Position numbers and translations under genes: made by a program. Positions 7,324-9,145 of a stretch of DNA of 23,878 nt are shown piece after piece. The DNA lies in the IMG/VR virus record IMGVR_UViG_3300046810_000208, positions 1 to 23,878 of that record; one strand, given 5' to 3'. The stretch's first letter is position 1. Every line of letters begins with the position of its first letter. The notes under the pieces are model-generated. The model did not search any database. It was given only the letters and a program-made list of their open reading frames with translations, and had not been told where the DNA came from. The stretch is from a virus.

Positions 7324-7350
7324 AACCCGGCCTTGGAGTCGGGTTTTTTT
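7324..7350 (+). terminator. Intrinsic terminator (tR'-like)
   Basis: AACCCG (7324-7329) and CGGGTT (7340-7345) form a 6-bp stem with a 10-nt loop, followed by a run of T (7344-7350). It is oriented rightward and ends at the stop codon of the convergent secreted-protein gene, whose TAA uses two of its T positions. It closes the early operon or the candidate late leader. Confidence 0.75.
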
Positions 7351-7744
7351 ATGGGCAGGATTGAATCTGGCCAGCATCGTTGAAGTAGCAGTTCTTCCCG
7401 CGTTCCTTGCTATACCGAAGCCCATTTCCCAATGGCACTCCATTCCTGTCCTGAAGCTTCTCGTTCAAGCGAGTGCAGGAGGGTGTGCCGCTGTTCTCTC
7501 GAAACATCGAGGTCTGTTCTTTGTCGCATTTCGCGCGAAGGTCTTCGGTTATTTCAACTGTGTGCCTGTCGTAGTCGTTGGACATCTTATCCAGTCGATC
7601 GCAAGTCGGCGTTCCGTTGTTATCGCGAAACATTGAGGCGCGCTCCTTTTCGCATTTCTGCCTCATTTCTTGTACCTGCGGACTGTCTGCCGCCACCGCG
7701 ACGACGGGGGTCAACAACGCCAGGACAATTACCAGATTTCTCAT
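7349..7744 (-). CDS. Secreted cysteine-repeat protein (moron)
   Basis: This 131-residue protein starts at ATG 7744 behind AGGAG at 8 nt. Residues 1-19 are a signal peptide (MRNLVIVLALLTPVVAVAA, cleavage after AVA or AA), so the product goes to the periplasm. The mature part holds two copies of one unit 42 residues apart, at about 28-51 and 70-93, sharing a Lys-Cys start and the core SMFRxNxGTPxCxRL. A degenerate third end follows (NGVPLGNG, then Cys119 and Cys130). Six cysteines (31, 48, 73, 90, 119, 130) suggest three disulfides. I do not recognise the family. It lies opposite the late transcript inside the terminator-flanked island, so a lysogen-expressed envelope function, such as receptor masking or exclusion, is possible but unproven. 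Confidence 0.75.
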   Translation of the reverse strand: MRNLVIVLALLTPVVAVAADSPQVQEMRQKCEKERASMFRDNNGTPTCDRLDKMSNDYDRHTVEITEDLRAKCDKEQTSMFRENSGTPSCTRLNEKLQDRNGVPLGNGLRYSKERGKNCYFNDAGQIQSCP

Positions 7745-7837: not shown

Positions 7838-7877
7838 GGCGACTCCAGAGGGTGCTGTAACACCCAAGGGAGTCGCC
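7838..7877 (-). terminator. Long composite hairpin with T-run on the minus strand
   Basis: GGCGACTCC (7838-7846) pairs with GGAGTCGCC (7869-7877). Inside it GGGTG (7850-7854) pairs with CACCC (7861-7865) around the loop CTGTAA, with a symmetric 3/3 internal loop. On the plus strand seven A (7826-7832) precede the stem, so leftward RNA would carry the hairpin followed, 5 nt later, by a U-run. It may be a leftward terminator or a regulatory RNA element. No leftward gene lies to its right inside the island, which makes its client unclear. Confidence 0.5.
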
Positions 7878-7961: not shown

Positions 7962-7994
7962 TTGCAGATGTTGAAAGATTGCAGATGTGGAAAG
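7962..7994 (+). repeat. 16-nt direct repeat over the com start
   Basis: TTGCAGATGTTGAAAG (7962-7977) recurs with one change as TTGCAGATGTGGAAAG (7979-7994). The first copy contains the com start codon and the second lies in the first codons. The 17-nt offset is not a multiple of three, so protein repetition does not explain it. A binding site for Com on its own message is one possibility. Confidence 0.6.
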
Positions 7995-8153
7995 TGCAAA
8001 AGACTTCTCGCCCGTATAGGTGAGATGACGGAGCTCCAGATCAAATGTTCCCGGTGCGGAACGTTGAATCATGTGAGGGCCACGAGCCCCGAGCTATCGC
8101 CTGTGAGCGACATGAAAGCGGAATCCTCCGCTCAAAATCATTCGACTCAATAG
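7968..8153 (+). CDS. com: Mu Com-like zinc-binding translational regulator
   Basis: This 61-residue protein matches the Mu-like Com family over residues 1-42: Cys7-Gly-Lys-Cys10 and Cys27-Ser-Arg-Cys30 form a zinc ribbon, with KRLLARIGEMTELQIKC between and GTLNHVRATSPE after. The C-terminal 19 residues are a polar tail. In Mu, Com binds the mom message and exposes its translation start, so that the DNA-modification gene is translated. AAGG lies 8 nt before ATG 7968. Here the next gene, 8 bp downstream, is a lectin and not a mom-type modifier, and no methyltransferase is present in the window. Com may therefore regulate the lectin, or may have lost its partner. Confidence 0.85.
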   Translation: MLKDCRCGKCKRLLARIGEMTELQIKCSRCGTLNHVRATSPELSPVSDMKAESSAQNHSTQ

Positions 8154-8161
8154 GTATCGAA
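8117..8161 (+). promoter_or_regulatory. RNA hairpins at the com-lectin junction
   Basis: AGCGGA (8117-8122) pairs with TCCGCT (8127-8132) around a 4-nt loop. TTCGA (8141-8145) pairs with TCGAA (8157-8161), ending directly at the lectin ATG and holding the com stop and the only Shine-Dalgarno-like AGG in its loop. This resembles a structured translation start of the kind Com relieves on mom RNA. The second stem is only 5 bp, so the evidence is modest. Confidence 0.4.
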
Positions 8162-9019
8162 ATGGCTCTGACGATCTACCCACCAATTGCTCAGAACGGC
8201 ATCTCAGTCCTGCTACCTCAAACGGAAATTAGACTGGGACAGTACCTCCAGTCGCCTAACAAGCGCTGGAAGCTTCTTTTCAAGCAAGAAGATACCGATC
8301 TGGTTCTATTCGATGGTGATATTGCGGTCTGGTCAGCTTACTGGGCGACACCTTATTCTACGCAGGTCTACCCTCAGGTTTATTACGCAGGGGAGTATAG
8401 TCGCGTCTATATGAACGGCAGTTTGTCGCTGATGGATCGCGAGCGCGGTCGGCTTTGGGGTGCGACTACCAGCACACCACTGGATGGCAACGGTGCCGCG
8501 GCAGCGGTACGCACCTTCACCCAGCTCCAAGACGACGGGAACCTCGTCACTATTGATGCGATTCCCGTCTGGGCGACGAACAAATCAATCCCCGTTACGC
8601 CCGACATCGAAGCCGCCATCATTCCGCCCGGCACAAGCCTAACTCCAGGCCAGCAGATTAAGATCGGCTCCTATTTGTTCGTTTTCCAAACCGATGGGAA
8701 CTTGGTTCTCTACGGCCCAAACAACTCCGTTGTATGGGCTAGCTACACTCAGGGCGGAGCCCTTGCTGCAATGCAGGAAGATGGCAACTTCGTGATCTAC
8801 GACGGCAACATGAAGCCCCTCTGGTACACCGGCACTACCGCCTTCCCTGGCGCTCATGCACGCATCCAGGCAAACGGTAGCTTTTCCATCGTGGTCCACA
8901 AGGTTGTTTGGGCTCGATTTGGATATACGCCAGTGGTTAAAGCACGCCCTGTTTATTATCCTGACCACACTAAAGACGAACTTGAGACGTTCTACAGCCA
9001 CGTTATTTACACATTTTAA
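8162..9019 (+). CDS. Tandem B-lectin protein, LlpA/L-pyocin-like
   Basis: This 285-residue protein is built from two monocot-mannose-binding-lectin domains. The sugar-site pattern QxDxNxVxY is exact at 176-184 (QTDGNLVLY) and 205-213 (QEDGNFVIY), nearly so at 123-131 (QDDGNLVTI), and degenerate at 42-50, 83-91 and 236-244. That is three strands per domain, with the second domain best preserved. A short aromatic extension ends in YTF. There is no signal peptide. Length, two domains, stronger C-terminal sites and the missing signal are as in LlpA bacteriocins (L-pyocins, putidacin), which bind rhamnose-containing LPS and kill related Pseudomonas through BamA. A phage-particle or lysogen surface lectin is an alternative. 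The start ATG 8162 has a weak AGGT only. Confidence 0.82.
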   Translation: MALTIYPPIAQNGISVLLPQTEIRLGQYLQSPNKRWKLLFKQEDTDLVLFDGDIAVWSAYWATPYSTQVYPQVYYAGEYSRVYMNGSLSLMDRERGRLWGATTSTPLDGNGAAAAVRTFTQLQDDGNLVTIDAIPVWATNKSIPVTPDIEAAIIPPGTSLTPGQQIKIGSYLFVFQTDGNLVLYGPNNSVVWASYTQGGALAAMQEDGNFVIYDGNMKPLWYTGTTAFPGAHARIQANGSFSIVVHKVVWARFGYTPVVKARPVYYPDHTKDELETFYSHVIYTF

Positions 9020-9117: not shown

Positions 9118-9145
9118 GCCTCGGTATACACCGAGGCCTTTTTTT
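9118..9145 (+). terminator. Strong intrinsic terminator before the lysis genes
   Basis: GCCTCGGT (9118-9125) and ACCGAGGC (9130-9137) form a perfect 8-bp stem with loop ATAC, followed by C and seven T (9139-9145). It ends the com-lectin transcript and marks the right border of the island. Late transcription entering from the left must read through it, or must start between it and 9170. Confidence 0.9.

Follow-up and report, generated by a model that had tools for sequence, protein, structure and literature searches.

A com-associated RNA element before a lectin-like bacteriocin gene in a Pseudomonas prophage: a candidate Mu-type translational switch

In phage Mu, Com activates mom (PMC6483171). 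The stretch of DNA analyzed here (the window; an IMG/VR virus record of 23,878 bases, with terminase, portal, head, and tail genes typical of a tailed phage) is part of a Pseudomonas prophage in which com is followed by a lectin-like bacteriocin gene, llpA. One question raised by this locus is whether, and by what means, Com might control a bacteriocin. The linkage itself is already published, as is the presence of com before other cargo. Ghequire, Ozturk and De Mot (2018) found com (PF10122) before ~90% of the L-type bacteriocin (llpA) genes outside P. aeruginosa, reported that it can also precede other bacteriocins, a lytic enzyme, and glycosyl hydrolases, and left its general role for exploration (PMC6240691). 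Srivastava et al. (2012) described com before genes for levansucrase and cellulase in P. syringae (PMC3899960). The gene pair in the window is one more case of the com-linked llpA and other tailocin/prophage cargo of the 2018 study, which covers gene linkage and an alignment of the Com proteins; an RNA leader is added here. This leader, its two-state model, the match to the Com consensus, and leader copies without com were not found in the literature searched, where coverage of subscription journals was partial and a prior description is possible.

The com-llpA gene pair and its surroundings

The com gene (7968..8153, plus strand) runs from an ATG at 7968 to a TAG at 8153, and its 61-residue product is a Mu-like Com zinc-ribbon regulator, matching PF10122 (68.3 bits against a cut-off of 22.9; E 3.9e-19) and PHROG 6417 (translational regulator). 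Both CxxC pairs of the zinc ribbon are present (C7-C10 and C27-C30), which agrees with the initial annotation of an intact Com. Also confirmed is the tandem lectin gene beginning 8 bp later: llpA (8162..9019, plus strand) is separated from com by a spacer at 8154-8161 and encodes 285 residues. Its product, a tandem B-lectin, scores 340.6 bits with NCBIfam NF033557 (“putidacin L1 family lectin-like bacteriocin”; cut-off 275, model positions 2-274 of 274), matches PF01453, and aligns with putidacin L1 over residues 12-271 (phmmer 3.2e-44). The C-terminal lectin domain contains two QxDxNxVxY motifs (QTDGNLVLY and QEDGNFVIY). Judged by its sequence, this lectin is an ordinary new member of the putidacin L1/LlpA family, above the family cut-off and different in nothing of kind from the known bacteriocins, which kill Pseudomonas via LPS rhamnose and BamA (PMC6240691).

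Replication genes and a NinG gene lie upstream of the pair, and two holin genes are found just downstream. Between llpA and the holin genes is an intrinsic terminator-like hairpin with a T run (9118..9145, plus strand), from which it is possible that com-llpA forms its own transcription unit without read-through to the lysis genes. Mu-type promoter control by GATC methylation was considered; the only GATC sites 5′ of com are at 7597 and 7879, and no cluster exists. A scan for SOS-box-like patterns returned six matches where 8.45 are expected, a sigma-70 scan gave a single match (7253) that is not above chance, and an Rfam gathering search of the window gave zero matches. Between the NinG-side genes and com, and antiparallel to com-llpA, is an ORF of 131 residues (7349-7744, minus strand) with two similar repeats (KCEKE..SMFR.N.GTP.C.RL), an apparent signal peptide, and no confident family match. 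A strong leader hairpin is located 5′ of com (7838..7877, plus strand; GGCGACTCC..GGAGTCGCC with inner GGGTG..CACCC), near the expected map position of the lscB transcription start (PMC3973379). The motif of its first arm recurs at a fixed distance from com (134-137 nt 5′) in 57 of 172 com loci, whose cargo is diverse.

The RNA element and its conservation

The RNA element spans 8077-8155 and covers the 3′ half of com together with the Shine-Dalgarno (SD) sequence of llpA. It begins with a putative Com-binding hairpin, HP1 (GGGC[CACGA]GCCC; 8077..8089, plus strand), followed by a second candidate, HP2 (TCGC[CTGTGA]GCGA; 8097..8110, plus strand), and by a long stem (8099..8155, plus strand) in which 8099-8115 pairs with 8138-8155 around an apical hairpin, GCGGA-ATCC-TCCGC (8118..8131, plus strand). 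The SD, AGGT (8152..8155, plus strand), overlaps the com stop codon (8151-8153), and in the long stem it is paired, as AGGU, with an anti-SD arm, GCCU (8099-8102); the stem is a putative analogue of the translation inhibitor structure. HP2 takes up the 5′ arm of the long stem, and the two are therefore mutually exclusive. The hairpin first drawn by hand, GC[CCCGA]GC slightly downstream, was abandoned in favor of HP1, whose pairs covary and whose register is preserved in the stand-alone copies.

The fold of 8095-8164 has a z of −4.45, with none of 200 shuffles as good. The hairpins that the initial annotation had placed around the lectin start are beyond chance, but they lie upstream of the ATG, nearly all inside the 3′ half of com. 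Its description of the lectin ribosome site as weak was not upheld: the AGGU lies 6 nt 5′ of the ATG and is not especially weak, being predicted instead to be buried in the stem. Energy-parameter predictions give the free window RNA −30.0 kcal/mol, with the SD bases unpaired at probabilities of 0.0-0.2, whereas with HP2 enforced the energy is −24.8 kcal/mol and the four SD bases are unpaired at 0.97, 0.73, 0.15, and 0.95. Over 124 copies of the element the mean predicted unpaired probability of the SD is 0.063 in the native sequences versus 0.359 when the 5′ part is shuffled.

Covariation was assessed in an alignment (A2) of these 124 distinct copies, which are related, so that the counts do not represent independent events. 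In HP1 (xGGC[CNNGA]GCCx) all four pairs covary, 96.6% of cells are paired, and none of 500 shuffles matches the covariation score. Its outer pair is A-U in 78 copies and G-C in 35, a swap that appears at the level of the Com protein as Lys37 and Leu41 versus Arg37 and Pro41. The loop of HP2 (UCGC[CNNNGA]GCGA) is C(N)3GA in 124 of 124 copies, comprising 12 distinct loop sequences; the hairpin is almost invariant within the Pseudomonas set, and evidence for its covariation thus rests on distant phages. RNAalifold alone recovered HP1 and HP2 and did not report the long stem, which was for this reason tested by named-structure counts. Taken jointly with HP1, the stem has 88.2% of cells paired, where slid versions have 31-41%, and the both-side changes number 103, compared with 27.1 in shuffles, figures to be read with the caveat that the stem had been drawn from those same sequences. 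The bulk of this joint signal comes from HP1 and the apical hairpin (92% of cells paired, compensatory changes in four of five pairs); the SD:anti-SD pairs are conserved, with few compensatory changes.

Most of the element is also coding sequence. Codon 46 of com is NNG in 102 of 102 genes, though it encodes L, V, M, K, S, W, or G, and codons 39 (NNG) and 43 (NNA) are each fixed in 101 of these genes while the amino acids vary. Both hairpins are present in 85 of 109 com genes, compared with 0.26-0.53% of protein-preserving codon shuffles; the genes being related, this figure is descriptive and carries no significance level. Conservation from protein coding alone is rejected on the basis of these shuffles and of the copies without com presented below.

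In vitro selection with the Com protein of Haemophilus sputorum yielded GAG(N)2CC and CC(N)2-3GAG in hairpin loops, often as paired copies, and the GA bases of the selected loops were protected (PMC6483171). The loops of HP1, C(N)2GA, and HP2, C(N)3GA, fit the published consensus CC(N)2-3GAG, the motif thus occurring twice in the leader. The loop of the native Mu site, AUGC[CUGCGA]GCAU, begins at com nucleotide 114; a coordinate comparison reveals that the HP1 loop starts at the same nucleotide. In the annotated phages B3, UMP151, AP3, Mana, Smp131, and JD024, com precedes DNA-modification genes, and both hairpins were found in all seven com-modification phages examined, with differing stems (GGGC/GCCT, CAGC/GCTG, and GGGC/GCCC for HP1; GCGC/GCGC, AGGC/GCCT, and TCGC/GCGA for HP2). 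A covariance model built from the Pseudomonas copies hits the outgroup phage loci in place (E 8.6e-9 to 0.1). When both hairpins are enforced, predicted SD exposure increases in six of the seven outgroup phages, phage B3 showing no predicted gain. Clear hairpins of the HP1/HP2 form were not found in two distant loci (L210 and L213).

Like the window, Mu com/mom combines a Com of the same family with a Com-motif hairpin, followed by a stem that keeps translation of the next gene from starting (PMC6483171). The Mu-type layout is present here as a predicted, covarying structure, with the Com-site hairpin directly 5′ of the initiation-blocking stem. The two systems differ in that the target in the window is a bacteriocin and not a DNA-modification gene, the ORFs do not overlap (8 bp apart), and the stem covers the SD, not the start codon. 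In addition, the window possesses a second Com-motif hairpin (HP2) overlapping a stem arm, and the Pseudomonas leaders are repeated, some of them without com.

Cargo diversity and leaders without com

A survey of com comprised 80 relatives in viral contigs, 78 bacterial-genome loci, and a further 49 loci from viral contigs that partly repeat the first set; once duplicates had been discarded, 174 distinct loci with a com ORF of more than 40 residues remained. Clustered by sequence, the genes after com form 13 groups, with singletons besides. An ORF follows com in 172 of the loci, and its start is within −17 to +13 nt of the com stop codon in 159 of these. The commonest cargo families are llpA (44), a 106-residue family without matches (44), and DUF642 secreted proteins (32), followed by GH5 cellulase (10), colicin M (8), a beta-propeller protein (6), a 213-residue secreted protein (6), GH68 levansucrase (6), alginate lyase (2), a beta-helix protein (2), DNA methylase (2), and a few others. 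The initial annotation had suggested that Com is a general translation switch for toxic or costly late products. This is partly supported: generality is favored by the unrelated cargo, the position of the starts near the com stop codon, and an element that joins the Com consensus to an SD-burying stem, but several of the cargo products are exported enzymes and not toxins.

The 106-residue family (MExVxxGxxF...PAxNVxG; L032:5196-5513 and 43 other com loci) is as frequent as llpA in this sample. It has no match in Pfam, PHROG, or NCBIfam; its AlphaFold2 model is confident (pLDDT 90.5), all-beta, and jelly-roll-like, and a fold search returned only weak jelly-roll matches, with no PDB match at E <= 0.001. 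The phage-associated promoter element before the P. syringae lscB/lscC and cellulase genes, described as a mobile promoter (PMC3899960, PMC3973379), contains com and the same leader, here ahead of different cargo (L148, L150, L156, and L089 in A2). A GH5 cellulase (L089:4194-5363) and a GH68 levansucrase (L150:3229-4521) possess similar N-termini (MSNSSSVIAQLKNIPLV and MSTSNSAVSQLQNSPLV), from which we surmise that the transferred module can extend into the cargo coding sequence, as was likewise noted earlier (PMC3899960).

No intact com ORF is present in 13 copies of the element. The gene after each of them is a second cargo gene, in most cases llpA or a member of the 106-residue family. Ten of these copies lie 14-93 nt past the stop codon of the first cargo gene, and one (L164, 5688) resembles a decayed com. 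The C(N)2GA loop is retained in 11 of the 13, and their HP1 stems differ from one another yet stay complementary. Arrays of three to four leaders, each before different or decayed cargo and with com intact, partly decayed, or absent, were seen at L164, L108, and L028.

Among 298 Pseudomonas genomes searched for the llpA family, 13 loci that scored above the cut-off were fetched, all with full-length llpA. The element is found immediately 5′ of llpA in every one of them (E 7e-7 or better), including two loci (L252 and L258) in which the nearest full com is further off, and seven of the 13 carry an additional element within the same fetched stretch. Among 16 single-lectin loci neither the element (best E 0.18) nor com was present. 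Unlinked com and lectin genes at most loci had been put forward as evidence that would speak against a switch; instead, the element adjoins all of these full-length llpA genes.

A conditional model and its alternatives

Our preferred reading, to which we assign a probability of roughly 0.7, is that com, the two-state RNA leader, and llpA constitute a Com-activated bacteriocin unit that operates as a Mu-type translational switch. In free mRNA the llpA SD would pair with the anti-SD arm, and little llpA would be translated. Com produced from that mRNA would bind the C(N)2-3GA loops of HP1 and HP2; HP2, so held, would deprive the SD-burying stem of its 5′ arm and free the SD, the energy of binding paying the cost of switching, which is about 5 kcal/mol. 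Translation of llpA would then follow the accumulation of Com, and the adjoining lysis genes could release the product. The leader would be portable: cargo genes of many unrelated kinds follow it, and its com-less copies stand ahead of second cargo genes in the same arrays, where a single Com could serve several leaders; in com-linked copies, coupling to com translation may contribute as well. This reading draws on the covariation of HP1 and the long stem, the constant form of the HP2 loop, loops that fit the SELEX consensus, and the agreement with Mu at nucleotide 114. It draws further on the hairpins of the com-modification phages, the fixed third bases of codons 39, 43, and 46, the codon shuffles, the com-less copies, the element at 13/13 llpA versus 0/16 single-lectin loci, and the low native exposure of the SD.

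The main contrary evidence is that a stop codon in com left lscB expression unchanged in P. syringae, a result given as data not shown (PMC3899960); an effect might have been masked by further com copies of that strain, acting in trans. The null result for exposure in B3 and the near-invariance of HP2 within Pseudomonas also count against a Com switch, and in com-linked copies ribosomes translating com would open the stem too. The last point leads to plain translational coupling, in which such ribosomes melt the stem and re-initiate at llpA while the Com protein has no effect on it. The overlap of the SD with the com stop codon, the llpA start 8 bp further on, and the position of the long stem inside translated com are all congruent with coupling, and the lscB result would suit an idle Com protein, though the introduced stop should have cut coupling as well. 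We nevertheless regard it as unlikely, since HP1, HP2, and the long stem are kept in copies without a com ORF and the loops hold the Com consensus while the stems change.

Two further alternatives appear much less probable still. The conserved segment could be mainly a recombination anchor for cargo swaps, as in the view of it as a “phage-associated promoter element”, and the fold of its RNA would then have no regulatory role at present. Near-identical leaders before very different cargo, the leader arrays, and the mobile element proposed for the lsc genes (PMC3899960) would all fit; an anchor, however, needs sequence identity and not the compensatory changes counted above, and distant phages retain the structure despite other sequences, which makes this explanation highly improbable. 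About equally improbable is that Com, once bound to the leader, acts as an autoregulator or repressor and limits com or cargo expression. The sign of an effect is not readable from sequence, and Com bound to hairpins inside com could halt com translation, but HP2 excludes the SD-burying stem, such that holding HP2 would free the SD, and the Com of Mu is an activator (PMC6483171).

For the Com-activated unit, the covarying element and the two-state model make the role of Com before bacteriocin genes open to a direct reporter experiment. The signature, whether com with the leader or the leader alone, helps to find new phage-borne cargo such as the 106-residue family. We see about even odds that the switch is portable and protein-gated, one phage Com controlling in trans a set of leaders that includes com-less copies. 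If Com does act in this manner, the textbook one-gene switch would become a small regulon: the bacteriocins and exported enzymes of Pseudomonas prophages would be grouped in small translational regulons, and placing new cargo behind a leader would suffice to bring it under Com control.
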